Positions 572 through 10,751 of a DNA stretch of 10,751 bases are shown here, in pieces. A program made the position numbers and the translations under genes. The notes under the pieces are model-generated. The model ran no database searches. It worked only from the letters and a program-made list of their open reading frames with translations, and was not told the DNA's origin. The stretch is from positions 1 through 10,751 of the forward strand of contig JAFGON010000036.1 in assembly GCA_016926475.1 (NCBI GenBank), given 5' to 3'. How positions within the stretch are numbered: the first letter of the stretch is position 1; each line of letters starts with the position of its first letter. The DNA is from a candidate division WOR-3 bacterium (GTDB lineage Bacteria; SDB-A).

Positions 572-1069
572 ATGGGCGTAAAAGAACACGGCAAAAAAAT
601 CAAACCGGCCGGAGACTTGCAAAAATACATTGATTCAACCGGTAATAAATCTGATAAAACCCATCCCTACGTCATACTTCTGGGTCTAAAACCCTGCGAC
701 ACCGAACCTTTGCTCAAGAACATAGAAGGCGGTATTCCATATACCGCTTTTCAAAGACTTCAAAAAAACCTCGAGATGACGACAGGTGAACTGGCGGAGC
801 TTCTGCAGATAAACGTACGAACGCTTCAGAGGAGAAAAAAATCCGGAAAACTCGAACCGGACGAGTCCGACAGGCTGTTGCGGCTTTCGAGGGTGTTCGG
901 AAAAGCTCTTGAGCTTTTCGAAGGTGATTTCGATGGCGCCAAAAAATGGCTTTCCGAAAAGCAGACCGGTCTTGGGAACCTCAGACCGATAGATTTCATA
1001 AAAAGCGAAGTAGGAGCAATAGAGGTCGAAAATCTTTTGGGCAGACTCGAACATGGCGTTTTTCCTTGA
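572..1069 (+). CDS. Xre/MbcA/ParS-type antitoxin (DUF2384)
   Basis: A 165-residue antitoxin of the RES-Xre family. It binds and blocks the RES toxin encoded next and, by family precedent, represses the operon. After an N-terminal extension, residues about 60-97 form a helix-turn-helix (pattern AELLQINVRTLQRRKKSGKL). Residues about 98-165 form the DUF2384 toxin-binding part, with the typical AKKWLSE segment, the IDFIKSEVGA segment, and the family hallmark C-terminal tail LGRLEHGVF, which reaches into the toxin active site in solved complexes. The start is the ATG at 572, five bases after AGGAGG (561-566). The stop TGA (1067-1069) overlaps the probable TTG start of the toxin, so the two are translationally coupled. 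The length and both domains look intact. Confidence 0.92.
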   Translation: MGVKEHGKKIKPAGDLQKYIDSTGNKSDKTHPYVILLGLKPCDTEPLLKNIEGGIPYTAFQRLQKNLEMTTGELAELLQINVRTLQRRKKSGKLEPDESDRLLRLSRVFGKALELFEGDFDGAKKWLSEKQTGLGNLRPIDFIKSEVGAIEVENLLGRLEHGVFP

Positions 1070-1533
1070 AGATAACTTCCTGGCGCATAGTTAAGAAAAA
1101 ATTCGAATCATCGGCTTTTTCCGGAGAAGGTTCGAGAATATACGGCGGAAGGTGGAACAGTCCAGGGAAAAAAGTTGTGTACACCTCGGAGAGTGTTTCA
1201 CTCGCACTGCTTGAAATCGCAGTCCATCTAAACAGTAAGTTATTGGAAGACTTTTTTTTAATACCGGTCACTTTTGAAGATTCCTTTGTGAAAAAGGTTG
1301 ATCTGAAGGATTTGCCGAAGAACTGGAGAAAATTTCCGGCACCGGTGTCGTTGAAAAGAATCGGAGATTTGTGGTACGATAAAATGAATTTTCCGGTTCT
1401 AAAAGTTCCCAGTGCAGTCGTGACGAGGGAATTCAACTATCTTTTAAACACCTCACACGAAAAATTCAGGAAGATATTAATCGGCAAACCCGAAATTTTT
1501 GAAATTGATCCGCGGCTTATTAAAAGCAGTTGA
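1066..1533 (+). CDS. RES-domain toxin (NAD+-depleting)
   Basis: A 155-residue RES toxin. Family members degrade or phosphorolyse NAD+ or transfer ADP-ribose; MbcT and ParT are characterised relatives. The N-terminus matches the family closely: SWRIV, then AFSGEGSRIYGGRWNSPG, then VVYTSESVSLALLEIAVH. The expected polar active-site residues are present: R29 in GGRWN, Y39, E50 in the ALLEI helix, S116 in VPSAVV, and the NYLLN segment at 124-128. No ATG lies at the right place in this frame. The TTG at 1066 starts the protein where relatives start and overlaps the antitoxin stop by 4 bases (TTGA). An upstream in-frame extension to about 946 lies wholly inside the antitoxin gene and is unlikely to be translated. 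The Shine-Dalgarno site is weak, consistent with coupling and low toxin output. The toxin appears complete. Confidence 0.88.
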   Translation: MKITSWRIVKKKFESSAFSGEGSRIYGGRWNSPGKKVVYTSESVSLALLEIAVHLNSKLLEDFFLIPVTFEDSFVKKVDLKDLPKNWRKFPAPVSLKRIGDLWYDKMNFPVLKVPSAVVTREFNYLLNTSHEKFRKILIGKPEIFEIDPRLIKSS

Positions 1534-1577
1534 TTGAGAGGTGTTTAAGATTTCTATAAACTGCGGACGATCGATGT

Positions 1578-1607
1578 TTGACCTTATATGCGTTGAAGGT
1601 TTATAAT
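1578..1607 (+). promoter_or_regulatory. Promoter of the transglutaminase-like gene
   Basis: TTGACC (1578-1583) and a perfect TATAAT (1602-1607) are separated by 18 bases. The start codon is 34 bases further on. The transglutaminase gene therefore does not depend on the toxin-antitoxin transcript. A distant 7-bp repeat pair, GGTGTTT (1540-1546) and AAACACC (1612-1618), flanks the promoter, but its meaning is unclear. Confidence 0.55.
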
Positions 1608-1641
1608 CAAAAAACACCCACCTTAAAAAACGGGAGGCTCC

Positions 1642-3660
1642 ATGGTTTTTTTGTTATTTATAATGTCTCAAATTAATCCCTGGGGCAATTATCCGGAAAA
1701 ACTCATTCCCGCCTCTGAAAAAGGTTACAGCATGAATTTATTCCTTCTGCGTGTTGAAGGCAATCTGGGGATTTCTACTGTCTCAGCGGGGGATGAATAC
1801 ATCGCGTATTTTCACGTGCCTGTTTGTTACGAGCACCAGGTTCCCGTTTATTTCGAAGTTGATAATCCTTACATGATCAACTACAGGTTCATAGAACTTA
1901 CGCCTCCGAATTACATGGTAGCTGCAACTATGAGACCTGGAGCGCCGACAAGTATCAACTGGAAGGTATGGGTCCTTGTGCTTCAGGAAACATGGTCCGA
2001 CCTGCCTCAGTACGTTCCGATTCCTGAACCGGGCGAGCTGCCTGATTCAGTTCTCAAATGGCTTGTCCAGACGGATTGCGCACAGCTCGAGGCGCCTATT
2101 GTGACAGCAAGCGCCGCAACTGTTCTCGGAACAACCGACAACCTTATTGAGCTGGCTGATTCGATACATTCGTTCTGCTACAAAATACCGTGGCAGTTTC
2201 CGCACTCGCCCATGGCTTTCGACGCGGTCTACGCCCTGACCTGGGGAAATTCCTGCACGGGCCACGCGCACGCCGCAGCCGCGCTTTTCAGGGCTAACGG
2301 AATCCCGGCGAGAACCCTAATGAACTGTGTGATTTTAAATACCCTATACGACCACCATTGGGCGATAGATTTTTACGTACCTGATTACGGTTGGGTGAGA
2401 ATGGATCCGAGTATAGCGACATACCCGCAATACCCTTACACGGAAGCAGTGACAATGGTTTGCAACCCCGAGGACGAATTTCCCGTGTGGATGCTTCCCG
2501 GATGCGAAGCTTCATGGCACACTTCGGACCCGGTCTTTGGAAGGGGTGAACCCGGGTGGGGCGGTGGCCACACCGCTCAGCTGGAGCACTATTTCGCGGT
2601 TCAGAACGACACGGCTCTGCTCGCGAGAGTTGTTTCAGGTCAGGTTTATGCCAAACAGGTTGAGATTTGCGGTCTTCCGCTCAGTCCGCCCGACAGTATA
2701 ATCCGGGAGCAGGCCGTCCAGTGCACGTACGAAGCCAAACAGGCTTTTCTCGACAACAGAATAGACGAATTTCTAAAAAACATGCAGGATGCACTGAATC
2801 TTTTCAACAGCATCACCTTACAGGATGTGGACACTGTATTTGCTGAAGATTTTGAATCCGGTTCAGCGGGGTGGACCCACGGCGGAAATTTTGACGAGTG
2901 GGAGCTAGGTATACCTTCCGTCGGACCGGTCAACTCCCATTCAGGCAGTTACTGCTGGGGGACCGACCTTGACGGAGATTACGAGGACAATTCCGACAAC
3001 TGGCTGCTTTCTCCTCTGATAGAATTGCCTTCGTTGTCGACGGTATATCTCGATTTCTGGATATGGAATTCCATAGAGGACGACAACCCCTATTACACAA
3101 CGGACTACGCCTGGGTCGAAGTGTCGGCTGACGGATGTGTCACGTTCGAACCGGTTTGCTCAAAGACAGGCGGGATAAACGACGACCCTGAAATCCCGGA
3201 TGTCGGAGGGTGGTCCAAAATTGTGCTCGACCTTCACAAATACGCGGGAGACAAAATATATGTGAGATTCAGGTTCAGGTCCGATGTTTCCATTCACAGT
3301 ACTGGGACATACATAGACGATGTTTCGATTTACGGAAGACTGAAACCTTCTACGGGCGTCGAAGAGTTTCTCCCTGTTATATTAAAACCTATAAACTTTC
3401 AAATTTCATACAATCCTCATACTGTTTCTCTAATCCTCAGCTTTAATCTGAACAGGGATGATTTTGCAGAGTGTGTTTTATACAATTTGTCAGGGCAAAA
3501 AATCAATGAAATTGCCAGCGGCCGTTTCAGTTCCGGTGAAAATGTTTTGACCGTCGATTTGAGCGGTCCAGTTCTAGATTTATCAAGCGGTAAATACTTC
3601 GTTCGCTTAACAACTTCTTCCGGTGATTGCTTTACACAGCCATTCATCATCTGTCAGTGA
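1642..3660 (+). CDS. Secreted transglutaminase-like protein with C-terminal sorting-type domain
   Basis: A 672-residue multidomain protein. Residues about 185-275 form a transglutaminase-like (papain-fold) domain with a plausible catalytic triad: C205 in GNSCTGHAHA, H238 (or H239) in DHHWAIDF, and D255 in RMDPS. The YGWVRMDPS segment is typical of the family. Such enzymes act as peptidases or amidases, or cross-link proteins. A helical linker follows, then residues about 385-575 form a beta-sandwich of the kind seen in immune-inhibitor-A and MAM-like proteins (FESGSAGW, then DNWLLSPLIELP, then RFRFRSD and YIDDVSIYG). The last 90 residues resemble a type IX or Por secretion C-terminal sorting domain (VLYNLSGQKI, then LSSGKYFVRL). 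The start ATG follows GGGAGG (1632-1637), and an in-frame TAA at 1624-1626 rules out an extension. The N-terminus is hydrophobic but short and lacks positive charges, so it is a poor signal peptide. Confidence 0.8.
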   Translation: MVFLLFIMSQINPWGNYPEKLIPASEKGYSMNLFLLRVEGNLGISTVSAGDEYIAYFHVPVCYEHQVPVYFEVDNPYMINYRFIELTPPNYMVAATMRPGAPTSINWKVWVLVLQETWSDLPQYVPIPEPGELPDSVLKWLVQTDCAQLEAPIVTASAATVLGTTDNLIELADSIHSFCYKIPWQFPHSPMAFDAVYALTWGNSCTGHAHAAAALFRANGIPARTLMNCVILNTLYDHHWAIDFYVPDYGWVRMDPSIATYPQYPYTEAVTMVCNPEDEFPVWMLPGCEASWHTSDPVFGRGEPGWGGGHTAQLEHYFAVQNDTALLARVVSGQVYAKQVEICGLPLSPPDSIIREQAVQCTYEAKQAFLDNRIDEFLKNMQDALNLFNSITLQDVDTVFAEDFESGSAGWTHGGNFDEWELGIPSVGPVNSHSGSYCWGTDLDGDYEDNSDNWLLSPLIELPSLSTVYLDFWIWNSIEDDNPYYTTDYAWVEVSADGCVTFEPVCSKTGGINDDPEIPDVGGWSKIVLDLHKYAGDKIYVRFRFRSDVSIHSTGTYIDDVSIYGRLKPSTGVEEFLPVILKPINFQISYNPHTVSLILSFNLNRDDFAECVLYNLSGQKINEIASGRFSSGENVLTVDLSGPVLDLSSGKYFVRLTTSSGDCFTQPFIICQ

Positions 3661-3720
3661 AAACAAAGGGCAATTATAAGCAATCATAAAATAACCAAAA
3701 AAAAGTAAAGGAGAACAACA

Positions 3721-4182
3721 ATGGGTTTTGATTCAAAAATACTTTTTCAAACCGCAGTTCTGATTCTGGCAATATCTGTGTTTTCATTTGCCTGTTCGCA
3801 AAAAGAAACAAGGAATGAAACAGAGCAACCGGCCGATACAACTGTGACGGTTGAATCAACGGAACAGACAATCGAGAAAACCGGCACGATCGACGAGAGC
3901 GACCCGACGGATCCCAACCACATGAATTTTCCCTACGACGCCTACACATTCGAAGCTGTCGCCGGCGACAAAGTGAGGGTGGAAGTTATGACAGAAGCTT
4001 TTACACCTCTTCTCAAACTCGTCGAGGTATCCACAGGCGCGGTTCTGGCCGAATGGGACAGCGAGTATCCGACCGGAGACGCCCTGATCTACGTAATCGC
4101 CGGTCCAGGCGAATACGAAGCGAGGGTATATTCGACAAATTCAGGAACGGGTGAATATAGTCTTAAAATTATAGTGGAATAA
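3721..4182 (+). CDS. Small exported (lipo)protein with PPC-like domain
   Basis: A 153-residue envelope protein. Residues 1-25 form a signal sequence: K6, a hydrophobic stretch, then F-S-F-A-C25. Cysteine followed by SQKE suggests a lipoprotein, but F at -2 and S at -3 make the lipobox atypical. An acidic, Thr-rich linker (about 28-50) precedes a domain matching the bacterial pre-peptidase C-terminal (PPC) pattern: YDAYTFEAVAGDKVRVEV, then TPLLKLVEV, then a GDALIYVIAGPGEYEARVYS segment, and a closing GEYSLKI. PPC domains are secreted beta-sandwich modules, usually attached to peptidases; here the domain stands alone. An AAAGGAG site (3707-3713) sits 7 bases before the ATG. It lies 60 bases after the transglutaminase gene with no clear terminator between, so co-transcription is possible. 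Confidence 0.75.
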   Translation: MGFDSKILFQTAVLILAISVFSFACSQKETRNETEQPADTTVTVESTEQTIEKTGTIDESDPTDPNHMNFPYDAYTFEAVAGDKVRVEVMTEAFTPLLKLVEVSTGAVLAEWDSEYPTGDALIYVIAGPGEYEARVYSTNSGTGEYSLKIIVE

Positions 4183-4254: not shown

Positions 4255-5592
4255 TCATTTAATACCGTCTGTCAATTCATCGAATTCATCTTCTAATTTT
4301 CCGATATTCTCGGTCAGTAAATTTATTTCATCTTTGAGTCTCCGGAGTTTTTCTGAAAATTTCTCCGAACCTGCGGATTCCGGGTGAAGAGGTTTGAAAA
4401 GGTTTTGTTTAAATTCTTCGATTTCAGGGAATATTCTTGAGTACTCTGTTTCTTTTTTTCTATTTATGATTATATCCGCGATATTTTCTACAATCTCAGG
4501 TGTGAGTCTATTTCTTGTTCTTTTTTCAGTGAAAATTGACGCATCGACAAGCATAATCCCTTCGTCCGTCTTTTTAGGGCTAAAACCGAATATAAATGAC
4601 TGCTGGTAATTTCCCAAAAAATACAGGTTTGGAAGTCTTACGGCAAAATCAAGGGGTTTTTGAGAAATCAAACTAAAAAATTCATCTCTAAGATAATCTT
4701 CAGCCAGAGTCCGTGCGTCAATGTATAGAAAAATATCTTCTCCTTCAGAAATTACAAGATTTACTTCATTTGAAAGGTATTCTTTGTAAAGATCGTCGGC
4801 TCTTCGAAATTCTCCGGGTTCTCTTGAGGTTCTGAATAAAATTCTTCTCATGGAAACGTATGATTTAGGAAAATGAATTTTTGCGAATTTTTCTCCGTAA
4901 GGCGGAGCGCCTTCAGGTTTCAGAACTCTTATTTTTTCAGATTTTGAAAATTTTTTCAAAATGGCCTGGATCAGAAAAGAATGTAAAGATTCAGTGCATA
5001 CAAAAATATTACAGGTATAATTTTCGTTATAATCAAAATACACCCCGTTTTCTACTCCTGAAAACAATATATTTTCACATCCCTTTTTTTCAGCCAAAGC
5101 GATCATAAGCTCTTTGGCGTTTTCTTTAGCCCTCTGTTCTGGGTTGAAAAAAATACTTCCATGCTGAAAATACCTGAAGAGGGTGATGAAGAAAGAGCTT
5201 TTCTCACCTGCCAAGGATTTATTCTTATCCGACAGCTCAAGAGCCAATATTTTTACCTTCCTGTCTTTTTCTTCTTCATTTAAAGTGTTTTCAAAGAAGT
5301 CTTGATCAGTTTTATCCGGAAATTCAATGGAATTTGTTTTATAAAAATCATTTAACAAAAAGATCAGATTTTCATAGGCGTTTTCGTCTGTAGTAAGACC
5401 GGAAAAATAATGCTCTTTGTTTATTGAGAAAGGATTTGAAGTATCCATTGATTCTTCACAAAACTTCAAAAGAACTGTCCCGAAGAATATTGAAAAACTT
5501 TTCCATGATTGACGGCCGCCGCAGAAATTTTGATACAACCTTATGTATTCTCTCGCTTTATCTGAAAATAACCTGTCAGCTCTTTGAAGCAT
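4255..5592 (-). CDS. Degenerate HsdM-like protein (inactive N6-methylase fold)
   Basis: A 445-residue protein, second gene of a minus-strand pair. Its layout follows type I methylase subunits. GSIFFNPEQ (145-153) sits where motif X (GEFFTP) belongs. The C-terminal part resembles the end of HsdM: LRDEFFSLISQKPLDFAVRLPNLYF split across 301-325, then IMLVDAS (346-352), the LTPEIVENI helix, and EYSRIFPEIEEFKQN split across 383-397. The key catalytic parts are absent. The DPACGSG motif I position reads ILFSGVENG (175-183), and the NPPF/Y motif IV position reads about AKIHFPKSY (237-245). It should not bind SAM or methylate DNA in the normal way. A coiled coil (about 408-440) ends it. The ATG at 5592 overlaps the upstream HsdS-like gene by 17 bases, after a weak GGGA site; the frame is open further upstream to about 5706 but inside that gene. 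Assignment is by pattern recognition; the inactive role is inferred. Confidence 0.6.
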   Translation of the reverse strand: MLQRADRLFSDKAREYIRLYQNFCGGRQSWKSFSIFFGTVLLKFCEESMDTSNPFSINKEHYFSGLTTDENAYENLIFLLNDFYKTNSIEFPDKTDQDFFENTLNEEEKDRKVKILALELSDKNKSLAGEKSSFFITLFRYFQHGSIFFNPEQRAKENAKELMIALAEKKGCENILFSGVENGVYFDYNENYTCNIFVCTESLHSFLIQAILKKFSKSEKIRVLKPEGAPPYGEKFAKIHFPKSYVSMRRILFRTSREPGEFRRADDLYKEYLSNEVNLVISEGEDIFLYIDARTLAEDYLRDEFFSLISQKPLDFAVRLPNLYFLGNYQQSFIFGFSPKKTDEGIMLVDASIFTEKRTRNRLTPEIVENIADIIINRKKETEYSRIFPEIEEFKQNLFKPLHPESAGSEKFSEKLRRLKDEINLLTENIGKLEDEFDELTDGIK

Positions 5593-6193
5593 TTGATATT
5601 CCCAGTAAATTGTTGAGAGTGAGGTCCAGTATTCCTTTTTTATGTTCGATAATTTTCTCGTAGTATTCCATCTGTTTGGTGAGGTTTTCGTATATATTAA
5701 CCGCATTTTTCTGAATTTCGATATCAGGTAAGGTTATCTCAAGGGATTCGAGAGAGTTTTTGTTAATTATGTGTGTGTTTGCCCTGTTAGATGAAAAATG
5801 AGTCTGCGAAGGGGGAAGGTTGATGTAAAGGGCAAGATAGGGAGGAAATATTTCATTCCTATTTATACCCTCTATCGGTCGTATTCTCAGGATAAAAAAA
5901 TGGTGCGTCGCGACTGCATCAGAATCGCCCCTGAAAACAGCTGCAACATGATTGGTTGATTTGGCTTTGAACAGGATGTCGTCATCTTTAAGAAGATGCT
6001 TATCGAGAATTCTTCTATTGTCAATTTTAACGGATTTAAAAAGGTCAACATTTTCTAAAATAAGAGAGCGACCGACATCTGATAACTGTATTACCCGCAC
6101 ATCCCCATCGTTATCTTCTTCTATCGAAGACCTGAAAAGATAACCAGCTCTGATTTCACATATATCGGACAGCTTGATTCTTTTAATACCCAT
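5576..6193 (-). CDS. Half-length type I restriction specificity subunit (HsdS-like, one TRD)
   Basis: A 205-residue HsdS-like protein. It opens with the usual start of a target-recognition domain (KLSDICEIRAGYLFRSSI), followed by VIQLSDV, a DDDILFKAKS segment, THHFFILRI, and an SLESLEITLPDIEIQ segment that leads into the conserved helix (about 158-200). Full HsdS proteins have two such TRD-plus-helix halves, about 400 residues. This one has a single half, so it would need to dimerise, as known half-S proteins do, and would then read a palindromic target. The ATG at 6193 fits the family start (MGIKRIKLSDIC). Upstream TTG (6226) and ATG (6208) codons are in frame but no candidate has a good Shine-Dalgarno site. 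It ends with TGA, overlapping the HsdM-like gene. It lies first in the pair, the reverse of the common M-then-S order, and no HsdR gene is seen in the window. Confidence 0.82.
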   Translation of the reverse strand: MGIKRIKLSDICEIRAGYLFRSSIEEDNDGDVRVIQLSDVGRSLILENVDLFKSVKIDNRRILDKHLLKDDDILFKAKSTNHVAAVFRGDSDAVATHHFFILRIRPIEGINRNEIFPPYLALYINLPPSQTHFSSNRANTHIINKNSLESLEITLPDIEIQKNAVNIYENLTKQMEYYEKIIEHKKGILDLTLNNLLGISNASKS

Positions 6194-6236
6194 GACAGAT
6201 GATATCATATTTAAAAAAATATACAAAGCAATAATG

Positions 6237-6253
6237 GTAAAAAATTTTTTTAC
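6237..6253. repeat. A/T-rich palindrome in the divergent promoter region
   Basis: GTAAAAAA and TTTTTTAC arms (8 bp) flank a single T. The palindrome lies between the divergent HsdS-like and MoxR genes and overlaps the possible minus-strand -10. It could be an operator, but its low complexity also allows chance. Confidence 0.35.
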
Positions 6254-6277
6254 ACACTAGTAAAATTTTCTTGACAA
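6249..6277 (-). promoter_or_regulatory. Possible promoter of the HsdS/HsdM-like pair
   Basis: On the minus strand, TTGTCA (6277-6272) and a poor -10 TGTAAA (6254-6249) are spaced by 17 bases, about 55 bases before the ATG at 6193. The -35 overlaps that of the opposite promoter through a TCTTG-A-CAAGA palindrome (6269-6279). The -10 match is weak. Confidence 0.3.
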
Positions 6278-6299
6278 GATATTAAATTTTTGATATATG
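6271..6299 (+). promoter_or_regulatory. Promoter of the MoxR/VWA operon
   Basis: A perfect -35 TTGACA (6271-6276), a 17-base spacer, and -10 TATATG (6294-6299) preceded by TG plus one base (extended -10, 6291-6293). Transcription would start near 6306, giving a leader of roughly 37 bases before the ATG at 6343. Confidence 0.7.
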
Positions 6300-6332
6300 T
6301 AGGTAATAAAATTTAGCAAGACAATAATAATT

Positions 6333-6337
6333 GGAGG
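6333..6337 (+). promoter_or_regulatory. Shine-Dalgarno GGAGG that sets the MoxR start
   Basis: GGAGG lies 5 bases before the ATG at 6343. The frame is also open from a TTG at 6331, but that codon touches the ribosome binding site itself, so 6343 is the real start. Confidence 0.8.
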
Positions 6338-6342
6338 TTAAA

Positions 6343-7683
6343 ATGGATGAGATACTGAAAAGTCTAAAAATATGGGGTTACGAAAAGTATTCCAAAATAA
6401 TTCTTGCGGCTTTGGTCACGGGGGAACCCCTTCTTTTTATAGGAAAACACGGATCAGGTAAAACATTTATGTTGTGTCAGTTAGCACGTGCGCTCGGTTA
6501 TGAGACAGAAGGAGCTGAAAAAGAATTCAACGCTTACGACGCTTCAAAATCGGTTTTTGAAGATATCATCGGTTTCCCCGATCCTGAAATGATGAAAAAA
6601 GGGAAAATTGACTACATAAAATCGCCAATGACATTGTGGAACAAAAAATTCATATTGATTGACGAATTGTCGAGGGCGAATTATGCCATGCAGAGCAAAT
6701 GGCTTGAAGTCATTAAGGACAGATCCTTAATGGGAGAGAATATTCCTTCGCTGAAATATGTATTTTCGGCGATGAATCCCCTGAATTATCCCGGTGCTTA
6801 TTCGCTTGATCCTGCCCTTGCAGACAGATTTTCACAAATTGTGGAGATAGACGATTATTTTAAAGAAGAAGACATAATCAAAATCGTCAAAGGAAATAAT
6901 GAAAAATCATCACTTCTGAGAGAAAACGAAGAATTTGACGGGAGAATTACGGAAAAACTTCAAAGTCTGATAAAGAAAGTAAAAAAAGAATATTATTCTT
7001 TGCCCAAAAAAATTACCGAAATGTCTGAAAAATTCTGCTCTGCATATTACAGAAATGCCCAGGACGTATGTTCAGAAAAAGAATACAAAGCCGTAAGCGA
7101 GAGAAGGGCGGGAATGATTTTCAGGACGCTGAAAGTCATGTTCGCGATAGACTTGTCGGAAAAAATTAAAATTACGCCGAAAGCTTTTAGGGAAAATTTT
7201 AGAATGGCATCCGAATTTTCCTGGATTTATCCCGCCATAGAGGACGGGAATACGAGAAATCTTGAGAAGGAAATACTTGAAAAGACAATCAGAGACCTGG
7301 GTTTTATCAAGATAGAGCCGGAAAAGGAGGATAGCACTGAAAGAATACTTCAAAAATTCAAGAATTCAACCTCAGGTAAAGAAGCCTTTAAATCGGTTCT
7401 GACAATTTTAAACAAAATAAGGCTTTTGCAGGAAAAGAATGTTACGCCCTGTGAAAAGGACAGCCAGCTTTTTGAAAACGTGGTTGATGTTGTGCTCAAC
7501 CAAGATGCTGATTTGCTCAACAGGAATCTTAACGGAATGAGTGTTGACAGCTACAGAACAACAGGGATTTGCGACAACTACATCGACAACGACGACAATA
7601 CAGCAGTTGAAATAATTTCGGAAATTTTTACAAGGGAGGAAAATTATGCTAGTGGAAGTATTCAAGAGAAGAAAACTGCTTAA
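6343..7683 (+). CDS. MoxR-type AAA+ ATPase
   Basis: A 446-residue AAA+ ATPase of the MoxR/AAA_5 type, first gene of the plus-strand operon. Visible motifs: Walker A GKHGSGKT (34-41); Walker B FILIDELSRA with D107 and E108; sensor 1 asparagine N145 in SAMNP; the arginine finger region LDPALADRF with R162; and a sensor 2-like SERRAG (252-257). Family members form hexameric rings that remodel protein complexes and typically work with a VWA-domain partner encoded nearby, which is the case here at 8718. The C-terminal 190 residues are lysine-rich and helical, with no domain recognised, longer than in minimal MoxR proteins; they may bind a specific partner. The last 38 bases overlap the next gene. 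All ATPase residues expected for activity are present. Confidence 0.88.
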   Translation: MDEILKSLKIWGYEKYSKIILAALVTGEPLLFIGKHGSGKTFMLCQLARALGYETEGAEKEFNAYDASKSVFEDIIGFPDPEMMKKGKIDYIKSPMTLWNKKFILIDELSRANYAMQSKWLEVIKDRSLMGENIPSLKYVFSAMNPLNYPGAYSLDPALADRFSQIVEIDDYFKEEDIIKIVKGNNEKSSLLRENEEFDGRITEKLQSLIKKVKKEYYSLPKKITEMSEKFCSAYYRNAQDVCSEKEYKAVSERRAGMIFRTLKVMFAIDLSEKIKITPKAFRENFRMASEFSWIYPAIEDGNTRNLEKEILEKTIRDLGFIKIEPEKEDSTERILQKFKNSTSGKEAFKSVLTILNKIRLLQEKNVTPCEKDSQLFENVVDVVLNQDADLLNRNLNGMSVDSYRTTGICDNYIDNDDNTAVEIISEIFTREENYASGSIQEKKTA

Positions 7684-8482
7684 GGGTCTTTCTTTTCTTG
7701 CCGCAATCTTGAAAGAAGTCGCATTCAGTTCCGAAAAGGAAATCGAAGAATTGAATGTATTTACAAGAAGAGCCGCCCACTGGATTGTGCCTCCTCCGGA
7801 AAACAGGGGCGGGAGTTTTTACAAGACTCTGAAGAAGGAATTTATTCTCGGTGACAAAAAAATGGTCGGATTTTTCTGTATTGATTCCGGAAAAGTATAT
7901 GAAGTTTCGCAGTATCTTTGGGAAAAACTTACTGTAAACGGCACTATTGAAAAGCTTTTCCCCGGTTCAAGGGCAGGACTCCCTCTGAAAAAGTGCGTCA
8001 AGTTCAACAAGTTTCTCAACAAAGTCATCAATGAAATATCTATGTTTCAGAAGAACAGCAACTGGGATTATGAATTGCCGATTGTCCAGGATCGCTTGAA
8101 CGAAAGCAGTTTTATTAACGTAAAGAATTTTGAAGAAATTTTCACGAAGAACGGTGATGACTATTGTTTAAAGAGCAGAGTATTCCCGAGGGTGTTCAGG
8201 GAAAAGCTTTTGATAGTCAGGGAAAGGGAAATCAAAGGAGTTAAAATCAACGACGTTCTTTTCAAGGTTGGTAAATGCACCAACGGTTCAAGATCCAGAA
8301 ATGAAAATGAATATGTTTGTGTAGTGGACGGAAAGATGAAAATTCCCGGCAACAGTGAATTCAAGTATTTCTCTCAGGACAGCCGGCTCAAGGTTTTTGA
8401 AAGCGACAGCATCGACACAAAACTCAGTTCAATTCTTAAGACTATTTATCTTCTCAAGCAAACACCGGAAGTGAACAGCTGA
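7646..8482 (+). CDS. Unrecognised protein of the MoxR-VWA operon, ending at an in-frame TGA
   Basis: A 278-residue protein with no family I recognise. The ATG is 5 bases after GGGAGGA (7634-7640) and lies 38 bases inside the MoxR gene, so it is translationally coupled to it. It is basic, with many Lys, Phe and Asn, and shows no signal peptide or clear membrane segment. A tryptophan- and proline-containing patch (HWIVPPPENRGG, near residue 45) and a basic stretch (RVFPRVFREKLLIVREREIKG, split around residues 180-200) stand out, followed by predicted beta strands. Its place between a MoxR ATPase and its VWA partner suggests an adaptor or substrate-binding component of the same complex. The TGA at 8480-8482 may not be the ancestral end: the frame continues without a break to 8716, which would give about 355 residues. 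Confidence 0.75.
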   Translation: MLVEVFKRRKLLKGLSFLAAILKEVAFSSEKEIEELNVFTRRAAHWIVPPPENRGGSFYKTLKKEFILGDKKMVGFFCIDSGKVYEVSQYLWEKLTVNGTIEKLFPGSRAGLPLKKCVKFNKFLNKVINEISMFQKNSNWDYELPIVQDRLNESSFINVKNFEEIFTKNGDDYCLKSRVFPRVFREKLLIVREREIKGVKINDVLFKVGKCTNGSRSRNENEYVCVVDGKMKIPGNSEFKYFSQDSRLKVFESDSIDTKLSSILKTIYLLKQTPEVNS

Positions 8483-8716
8483 AAACAACCGCGTTTTAAA
8501 AGCGGTGTTTATTTTGTCTGCAAATCCCCAGATATATTATTTTACGATACAGCTCCGGAAGTCATAACCGATATTGATATGATCAAGAATATTTACAGCA
8601 GAATAGATTGCTGGATTTACAATCCCTTGCACCCCGCGCTGGACAGGTTCGCGGATTTCGAAAAAACAACCTCACTCGGAATTATTGACGGGAAAGCTCT
8701 TTGCAAAGCCGGTTAA
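8483..8716 (+). other. 77-codon open continuation of the same frame after the TGA
   Basis: After the TGA at 8480-8482 the frame stays open for 77 codons and ends with TAA at 8714-8716, one base before the ATG of the metallopeptidase-VWA gene. The encoded stretch looks like real protein (KSGVYFVCKSPDILFYDTA, then RIDCWIYNPLHPALDRFADF). The only in-frame ATG, at 8579, has no Shine-Dalgarno site, and no other good start exists, so an independent gene is unlikely. The next gene also lacks a good ribosome binding site, which makes sense only if ribosomes arrive from this frame. It is most likely the C-terminal end of the preceding protein, cut off by a nonsense codon or reached by readthrough; a sequencing error is possible. 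Confidence 0.55.
8488..8506 (+). terminator. GC hairpin directly after the TGA: possible attenuator
   Basis: ACCGC (8488-8492) pairs with GCGGT (8502-8506) across a 9-base loop GTTTTAAAA, followed by a U-rich but interrupted stretch (GTTTATTTTG). It starts 5 bases after the TGA. It could act as a weak intrinsic terminator that lowers downstream expression. It lies inside the open continuation, so it may also be simple coding sequence. Confidence 0.3.
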
Positions 8717-8717
8717 C

Positions 8718-10172
8718 ATGAAAAACGTCAAAGAGAAATTCACGGAAATGATTTTTGAAGAAAAAAGCTTTTTAAAGCCGCTTTTCGACATTTACAAGAG
8801 CACGGTAAAAGACGTGATAGTCGAAAAGGATTCCGAAAGTGTAAAAACCGCCTGTGTCCAACAGGCCGGAGACAACGGATTCGTTATCAGAATAAACGAA
8901 GATTTCATGAAAAGAAAAATGACCGGAAAGTATGATCTTCTTTGGGTGCTGATCCATGAATTATCGCACATTTTCTTCGAGCATTTTAAATATGCCGTTA
9001 AAATCTGCCCGGAATTCACGAATTTTTGCGCTGACATAAACTGCAATTCGCTGATGTTCAACCTCAACAGGAAAAAAAGAATAAAGGTTCTTGACCGCTG
9101 TTACGGCAGTTTCTACAAAAAAATGTTAAAAAACCGTTTTTTCACAGAAAAAGACCTTATGTTTCTTCTCGCGCCGCCCTCCAAAAGCAGAAAAAGCGTG
9201 GAACAGGATTTCAAAAAAATTGTCAACCTCTCTCCGTCCCGGAAAAACACGCTCATTTCACTGTGGTTTGACAATTACTTAAAACCTGGAATGCCGGTTC
9301 CGCAGTTGGAGAGTATATTGAAAAGATTTATCCGAAAAAGGGAAAATTTCACTTACATCTCACTCGTCAACAGCGAATTGACCAAAATCAGTGCGGTCAA
9401 AACCGCCGTTTCCGGCTTTATTGATCATATAAAAACCAGTTTATACTGCAGGAACGCATCCTCCATAGAAAAGATAAAAATTAAATTTCAGGAAGGCGGG
9501 AATCTCCGAAAAGCAGAACTTCTGAAAAAACTGATGGAAAAAGTCTTCTGTGAAAATATGTTCAAAAGTGTAAACTACAAAAATGACTTGGTCGAATCGA
9601 CGGGCGTCATACCGAATTTTTCAAGAAAACAGCTTTCACTTATTAATTGCGGAGTGAATACCCTTTTCTACCAGAACAAAATCCCGGCGAGGGTTAAAAG
9701 CGACGAGTTTTCGCCTGTATATATTGACCAGTCTGGTTCCATGGAATCCTACAAGGAATTGATTTACATTCTTTTGAGAAAAATCTCTGATCTTTTCCCC
9801 GGTCCGTATTTTGTGTTTTCGTCTGAACTTAAGAAGATAACCCTTCAGGACGTGAAAGAGGGGAATGCCATAACCGGCGGGACGGATATAAATCCTGTAG
9901 TCGAGCACATAAATTCGTGTAAATTCAAAAAAGCATTGATCATAACAGACGGCTGTTTCAAAAAACCGGATACGAGAGCCAAAGCGGAGACGTATGTAAT
10001 TTTGCCGTCCAAATCTTGTGAAAGTCATGCTTTAAAGAGCACAATGAATGATATCGGTGATATAAAAGGAATATTTTACCTCGATGTAGAATGTGAAAAC
10101 ACCTCACAAAGGTTCAACCAATTGAGAAGGAGGAGACCATGTATTTTGAAGAAACGTCAATATACGAGATGA
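8718..10172 (+). CDS. Metallopeptidase-VWA fusion (DUF2201-like), MoxR partner
   Basis: A 484-residue protein. The N-terminal half is a putative metallopeptidase domain with HELSH (H80, E81, H84) in a hydrophobic helix and a likely third ligand D106 in NFCADINCN, matching the DUF2201 N-terminal layout. The middle (about 125-300) is basic and helical. The C-terminal part is a VWA-like domain with an intact metal-ion-dependent adhesion site: D337, S339 and S341 in DQSGS, T389 in GGTD, and D411 in IITDG. MoxR ATPases pair with VWA proteins, so this is the expected partner of the protein at 6343. The ATG at 8718 is one base after the TAA of the preceding frame. The upstream in-frame TTG at 8685 is less likely. 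No good Shine-Dalgarno site is seen, pointing to coupling. The end overlaps the next gene by 34 bases. Both metal sites appear functional; the substrate is unknown. Confidence 0.85.
   Translation: MKNVKEKFTEMIFEEKSFLKPLFDIYKSTVKDVIVEKDSESVKTACVQQAGDNGFVIRINEDFMKRKMTGKYDLLWVLIHELSHIFFEHFKYAVKICPEFTNFCADINCNSLMFNLNRKKRIKVLDRCYGSFYKKMLKNRFFTEKDLMFLLAPPSKSRKSVEQDFKKIVNLSPSRKNTLISLWFDNYLKPGMPVPQLESILKRFIRKRENFTYISLVNSELTKISAVKTAVSGFIDHIKTSLYCRNASSIEKIKIKFQEGGNLRKAELLKKLMEKVFCENMFKSVNYKNDLVESTGVIPNFSRKQLSLINCGVNTLFYQNKIPARVKSDEFSPVYIDQSGSMESYKELIYILLRKISDLFPGPYFVFSSELKKITLQDVKEGNAITGGTDINPVVEHINSCKFKKALIITDGCFKKPDTRAKAETYVILPSKSCESHALKSTMNDIGDIKGIFYLDVECENTSQRFNQLRRRRPCILKKRQYTR
10128..10133 (+). 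promoter_or_regulatory. Shine-Dalgarno AGGAGG of the last gene, inside the VWA gene
   Basis: A full AGGAGG lies 5 bases before the ATG at 10139, within the coding end of the metallopeptidase-VWA gene. The strong site suggests high translation of the following gene and shows that the overlap is genuine. The local run of arginine codons in the VWA tail is partly a by-product of this site. Confidence 0.75.
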
Positions 10173-10751
10173 ACATTAAGTTAGTAAAAAACATTCCCAT
10201 TCTTCTATACGAAGATCCGAACGTAAAGGATGAAAGGGAGAAAAAAGCAAGGGATATGTGGTTTGAAGCGCTAAAAAATAAAGAGGAAACAAAAACTCCT
10301 GACGAATACTGCCCTCCCGAATACGAAGAAATCATTCTGTTGAACACTGGTTTGAGAAATTCCATCAGCAGAGAAGGCGATTTTGATTTCATTGAAAACT
10401 TTGATTATTCTACAGAAGATTCAGAAGAAAACCTTCAACTTATAAAAAATGCCTCGGAATTTTTAGGGACTGAGATAACAGTGATAGCGGGAAATGATTT
10501 TTTTGTAGATTACAGAACTGTTTTTAATTATAGAAATTCTAAAGCCGCTTTCAGCCGTGCCGTTTCAGACGGCTCTGTTTTTAGCCCTTATGCTTATCTT
10601 AAATCTACAGGCGATTTTTTTGCTGCCGATCCATATACTGCTGAATTCAGGGTTAAAAACAAAAAATACCAGATGCTCATCAACAGTGCGTCGAGATTTT
10701 CCTACCTGCCTAAAGGTGAATTGTCAGAAAAACCCATGAAGGGAGAAGAAG
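10139..10751 (+). CDS. Acidic protein of unknown function, N-terminal part
   Basis: The frame from the ATG at 10139 is open to the window end, giving 204 codons and no stop. It starts 34 bases inside the metallopeptidase-VWA gene behind a strong AGGAGG. The first 110 residues are markedly acidic (CPPEYEEII, then DFDFIENFDYSTEDSEEN), in contrast to the basic proteins before it. The later part (FFVDYRTVFNYRNSKAAFSRAV, split near residues 120-142, then YLKSTGDFFAADPYTAEFRV) looks like a folded domain that I do not recognise. There is no signal peptide or membrane segment. Its position makes it a fourth component of the MoxR/VWA system, perhaps a partner, regulator or peptidase substrate. This is inference from context only. 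Confidence 0.75.
   Translation, partial: MYFEETSIYEMNIKLVKNIPILLYEDPNVKDEREKKARDMWFEALKNKEETKTPDEYCPPEYEEIILLNTGLRNSISREGDFDFIENFDYSTEDSEENLQLIKNASEFLGTEITVIAGNDFFVDYRTVFNYRNSKAAFSRAVSDGSVFSPYAYLKSTGDFFAADPYTAEFRVKNKKYQMLINSASRFSYLPKGELSEKPMKGEE

Follow-up and report, generated by a model that had tools for sequence, protein, structure and literature searches.

The window, that is, the whole stretch of DNA analysed here, is the complete contig C36 (10,751 bases) of a 2.15-Mb assembly of 106 contigs. On its minus strand, a half-HsdS (S) and an HsdM relative (M) diverge from a plus-strand set encoding a MoxR ATPase, a middle protein, a HExxH-VWA protein and an acidic ORF. The features are as follows.

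572–1533, plus strand: Xre-RES toxin-antitoxin pair, a neighbour of both copies of the cassette; context, outside the cassette
4255–5592, minus strand: HsdM-like pseudo-methyltransferase; counted from the start common to the second copy (copy 2) it has 445 aa, and the longest ORF is 4255–5706
5576–6193, minus strand: half-HsdS with a single target-recognition domain and a C-terminal helix, about 205 aa; the ORF extends to TTG 6226
6194–6342: divergent intergenic region, 149 bases
6343–7683, plus strand: MoxR-type AAA+ ATPase, 446 aa
7646–8482, plus strand: middle protein with no assigned family, 278 aa, stop-truncated relative to copy 2
8685–10172, plus strand: metallopeptidase-like (HExxH) and VWA protein, 495 aa
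10139–10751, plus strand: acidic protein of no known family, partial, running off the contig end

The likely start codon of the M gene is ATG 5592, matching the start in copy 2, and that of the S gene is ATG 6193; with these starts the two genes overlap by 17 bases. The acidic ORF is incomplete in the window because the contig ends at position 10751. The first-pass annotation had described an S/M-like pair divergent from an AAA+/HExxH-VWA operon across a shared promoter region of 149 bases, with neither a restriction subunit nor an intact methylase in the window. Domain matches confirm these genes, the gap between S and MoxR is exactly 149 bases when S starts at ATG 6193, and the window lacks both HsdR and motifs I and IV of M.

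In the shared intergenic region, a -35-like TTCTTGACA (6268–6276) is kept in the window, in copy 2 and in the ortholog locus of another genus (G003), and TATATG lies 17 bases downstream of it in the MoxR direction. This pattern is expected by chance about 0.2 times in the window, and its conservation is only suggestive on its own.

The half-HsdS and pseudo-HsdM pair

The half-HsdS matches the Pfam family Methylase_S (E 1.2e-12) with a single domain over 205–216 aa, and its profile retrieves 8vsr 'Esub1' (198 aa) and 1yf2 HsdS among PDB sequences, at E 5e-10. At 3/3 loci the protein (205–236 aa) carries one Methylase_S domain, not the two of a two-domain HsdS. The two S proteins of the window genome are 83% identical, so that both probably read the same sequence.

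In the window M, only the C-terminal part matches N6_Mtase (E 0.002) or hsdM TIGR00497 (E 2.4e-4); the C-terminal match of the copy 2 protein to N6_Mtase/hsdM reaches E 3e-5, and the M profile that includes copy 2 and G003 matches the PDB entries HsdM 3lkd (E 1.7e-8) and 7bst (E 9e-8). The M of G003 is a clear HsdM relative, with HsdM_N and N6_Mtase (1e-27). When it is aligned to a profile built from 18 intact HsdM proteins, DPFCNAG stands at motif I, and motif IV, NPPF, is missing; the window M gives no alignment with this profile over motif I (DPxCGxG) or motif IV (NPPF). The loss of these motifs rules out the reading of M as an active methylase. Its best-retained portion is the HsdM C-terminal part, including the coiled coil, which contacts HsdS in type I enzymes. 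Their sequences mark S and M as worn-down subunits of a type I enzyme.

The restriction subunit HsdR is absent at all three loci. The sole R-M-S operon seen in the genome is a complete type I system that has R, M and S genes of its own, located on contig C81 and unlinked to the S/M pair; a direct linkage of this kind, which the first-pass annotation had named as an observation that would speak against its proposal, was thus not found.

The MoxR and HExxH-VWA core

The MoxR-type protein matches the Pfam families AAA_5 (6e-10), AAA_3 (5e-7) and bpMoxR (9e-6), and its profile matches Midasin and MoxR 2r44 in the PDB. Its Walker A (GKHGSGKT) and Walker B (ILIDE) motifs are intact. This AAA+ ATPase adjoins a vWA protein, as is characteristic of a MoxR-vWA core.

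In the HExxH-VWA protein, the residues HE..H, D117 and N121 and those of the MIDAS (DxSxS, T, D) are invariant across 10 homologues from several genomes. The predicted VWA domain finds structural matches with Z of about 11 to 11.6, and the protein weakly matches the CoxE/DUF2201 VWA models. Its whole-length Foldseek matches are phage 'metallopeptidase' proteins; PHROG 1314 is matched at E 2e-9, and PHROG 1297 also. A structure search for a solved zincin-fold relative of the N-terminal peptidase domain returned PDB lists dominated by VWA domains, with residues 1–337 barely covered.

The middle protein matched no Pfam family; its AlphaFold model, built from 2 sequences only, has a pLDDT of 31, and profile comparison revealed no detectable relation between it and the middle proteins of other MoxR-VWA loci. 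In copy 2 this protein continues past the position of the stop, and in the window the frame, apart from that one stop, runs on to about 8665. The window copy may be failing or decaying, or the stop in the middle gene may be a base error.

The acidic protein is complete in copy 2, with 310 aa (L014 4621–5553, minus strand), and has no Pfam or PDB sequence match. By eye, the C-terminal half of the copy 2 protein resembles retropepsins, with INTAS for DTGAS and then IIGSDFF; this by-eye resemblance would imply a pseudo-protease. In G003, an M28/M20-like peptidase is the last gene of the operon, at the position of the acidic protein.

The VWA type was present in 13/386 bacterial genomes searched at a threshold of E 1e-8. 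At the examined loci outside the phylum, no S or M was found near the core over the available stretches, several of these being short contigs. The core occurs with a middle-like ORF in G072 and G191 and with other proteins elsewhere; in G072 it lies beside ordinary genes. An S-adenosylmethionine synthetase gene (MetK) accompanies the core in G007, G028 and G142. The synthetase directly follows MoxR/HExxH-VWA or VWA at L018 2270–3457, L019 6384–7457 and L049 1–504, in different families. The MoxR scan also found two Ignavibacteria MAGs (L023 and L024) in which MoxR-VWA is followed by a WYL/DeoR-type regulator; further downstream are DUF1016 (L023), and DUF3800 and a HerA-like ATPase (L024).

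As for mobile elements, a 181-kb viral contig (L188) carries a VWA-MoxR pair, and its positions 6021–11244 hold HExxH-VWA, MoxR and a third protein of 563 aa. The VWA protein had no match in plasmids, that of G003 had none in annotated phage records, and scans of viral contigs with the VWA and S profiles returned no relatives.

Recurrence of the cassette

A search with the VWA protein revealed a second copy of the cassette in the same genome, about 84% identical and divided between contigs C70 and C92. It also revealed an ortholog locus in a different genus of this family, in the genome deposited as 'Desulfuromonas sp. SDB' (G003, LKUE01000431). At 3/3 loci, from two genera of one phylum, S/M is divergent from MoxR-middle-VWA, and this recurrence exceeds chance.

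Between the window genome (G000) and G003, the identities are 42% for MoxR, 33% for VWA, 26% for the middle protein (345 aa in G003), 30% for S and 22% for M, compared with 68% for RpoB. Since the order is kept at identities of 22–42%, either the layout has persisted while the sequences changed greatly or the cassette was transferred as a whole. The dN/dS values between the two copies are 0.35 (M), 0.23 (S), 0.13 (MoxR), 0.26 (middle), 0.16 (VWA) and 0.14 (last ORF); by these ratios, purifying selection has acted on every gene of the cassette since the copies separated.

The S profile found exactly three loci in the four genomes of the phylum, each beside the core. Of these genomes, 2/4 encode S together with the VWA protein and the other 2/4 encode neither, a perfect agreement in a small sample. 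The interpretation of the first-pass annotation, that S/M may be a sensor recruiting or triggering the other arm, is supported in part: the two arms form a conserved unit at three loci in two genera and are not rarely together, the outcome that the annotation had named as refuting, and the S/M coupling was not found in unrelated lineages.

Known systems, possible functions and flanking genes

The cassette resembles type I R-M systems in its S and M relatives, in the overlap of the S and M genes and in the retained C-terminal S-binding region of M. It differs in the absence of HsdR, the half-length S, the lost motifs I and IV and the divergent MoxR-peptidase operon. As for MADS (PADLOC mad1–mad8), S matches mad5, the M of G003 matches mad2 and an AAA ATPase is present; the window MoxR reaches mad8, at no better than E 5e-4, and the G003 protein does not. 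However, the generic models Specificity_I and MTase_I outscore the MADS models for S and M, and the MADS models do not detect the VWA or middle proteins. Most of the eight mad genes were not found at the loci, and MADS membership is ruled out by the best matches, which are to non-MADS models. The cassette is neither a type I R-M system nor MADS.

In jumbo phages, MoxR was reported together with a vWA protein that carries a metallopeptidase at its N-terminus, and a role in virion assembly was proposed for the pair (Viruses 2021, PMC7824862). In the present locus, MoxR likewise adjoins a vWA protein with an N-terminal HExxH domain; the locus differs in being chromosomal and in having the middle protein and the divergent half-HsdS/pseudo-HsdM. 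Ternary conflict systems centred on MoxR-vWA have been described, of the VMAP, iSTAND, FtsH and beta-propeller types (eLife 2020, PMC7159879), and such systems, when they include peptidases and a variable third component, are predicted to act against invaders (PMC7159879, PMC12839542). The cassette shares with them the MoxR-vWA core, a fast-diverging third protein and the peptidase sometimes carried by the vWA component (PMC7159879). On the other hand, the four published third components were undetected here, the middle protein having no Pfam match, and an HsdS/HsdM pair was not found in the consulted passages on the ternary systems (PMC7159879).

The core belongs to the already known MoxR and metallopeptidase-vWA kind. 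The first-pass annotation had not recognised the combination as a described defence system. This does not hold for the effector arm, already described in PMC7824862, PMC7159879 and PMC12839542; it stands for the coupling of a half-HsdS/pseudo-HsdM to the MoxR-vWA core, which was not found in the literature searched. The S/M-coupled form of the MoxR-peptidase-vWA core is rare and new, being known from three loci, which belong to two genera of a single phylum.

The S/M pair is most likely a DNA-reading sensor or regulator that would gate the MoxR-peptidase machine. We tentatively propose, with a confidence somewhat short of even, a MoxR/vWA-peptidase machine equipped with a restriction-derived DNA-reading module, in which S/M would be the DNA sensor. 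In the mechanism that we infer (S-M complex formation, signal transfer, peptidase activation and a role in defence), half-HsdS and pseudo-HsdM would assemble like a type I methyltransferase core, without methyl transfer. The complex would recognise a single fixed sequence in DNA, which may be a palindrome read by a dimer of the half-S, and this recognition may be methylation-sensitive. Binding of invading DNA would send a signal to the MoxR ring, either straight to it or by way of the middle protein, which diverges fast; MoxR with ATP would then remodel its VWA partner through the MIDAS and unleash the fused HExxH peptidase, and the outcome would be proteolytic damage to proteins of the host or the invader. 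The most far-reaching version, in which a dead type I methyltransferase core reads DNA sequence or methylation and switches on an ATP-driven peptidase, so that 'restriction' would proceed by protein cleavage, appears rather doubtful.

The sensor reading is supported by the same S-M and MoxR-middle-VWA order at three loci despite identities of 22–42%, by dN/dS values of 0.13–0.35 for every cassette gene and by the co-presence of S and VWA in the four genomes of the phylum. The state of M, without motifs I and IV yet with the C-terminal region and coiled coil, also points to it, as do the invariant HE..H and MIDAS residues and the defence-like neighbours. The published proposal that MoxR-vWA-peptidase systems act against invaders (PMC7159879, PMC12839542) also speaks for it. 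Against this reading, the arms are transcribed divergently and not as one operon, core relatives without S/M show that the core functions without a DNA-reading pair, and the S/M coupling is found in one phylum only, with a window copy that is possibly decaying. Phage relatives of the core may, moreover, serve virion assembly (PMC7824862).

The main rival, itself unlikely, takes S/M as a regulator that controls transcription of the MoxR operon by binding the 149-base region, with the invader sensed elsewhere, for example by the middle protein; S/M would repress or activate the divergent operon, possibly in response to DNA methylation or SAM. It is made serious by the WYL/DeoR-type regulators that Ignavibacteria relatives carry beside MoxR-VWA. 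Divergent placement across a short region with the conserved TTCTTGACA is the usual layout for a regulator and the genes it controls, and S has stayed similar in the two copies (83%) instead of diversifying. However, a repressor made from two-subunit R-M relatives would be unusual, and no palindrome was found conserved across the intergenic regions of the three loci.

The core could also be a chaperone for protein maturation or assembly with a processing peptidase, comparable to CoxD/CoxE, RavA-ViaA and phage virion assembly, and S/M an unlinked, co-inherited neighbour. The same core in phage genomes (the 181-kb contig L188; PMC7824862) and beside ordinary genes in G072 agrees with this. It is nevertheless quite unlikely, as the S/M pair has stayed in place at three loci while the sequences diverged widely, is missing from the two genomes that lack the core and is under purifying selection. 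Finally, a decaying type I remnant without HsdR, lying beside the MoxR operon by chance, would explain the strong degeneration of M, the absent HsdR and the stop in the middle gene of the window, but this orphan is highly improbable, being disfavoured by the dN/dS between copies (0.35 for M, 0.23 for S), by the same degenerate state and order in another genus (G003) and by the separate complete type I system on C81.

If S/M, as in the sensor reading, gates the peptidase, restriction-type recognition of self and non-self DNA would have been rewired to a proteolytic effector, and R-M enzymes would be linked to MoxR-vWA conflict systems, with a definable DNA trigger. The six-gene set has natural controls in the same core with a WYL regulator, with MetK or with no extra partner.

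Neighbours of the core loci are often defence-like (R-M, Xre-RES, PLD-HerA, DUF1016, HerA-like). A type II R-M system (N6_N4 MTase and an EcoO109I-type enzyme) directly adjoins the G003 cassette (L017 6937–8248). Downstream of copy 2 is a PLD-HerA-type ATPase fusion of 750 aa (L014 1627–3879, minus strand), and a 23S-IVP four-helix protein lies between them. The window is duplicated on C92 and C70 (L015 and L014) with 75–88% DNA identity, except for positions 1509–3828, which hold a secreted transglutaminase/MAM/sorting-tail protein (ORF 1642–3660). The Xre-RES pair, of the ParS/ParT type, is found beside both copies, the second at L015 4942–5996; its dS of 0.9–1.0, against 0.27–0.56 for the cassette, hints at different ages or at gene conversion.
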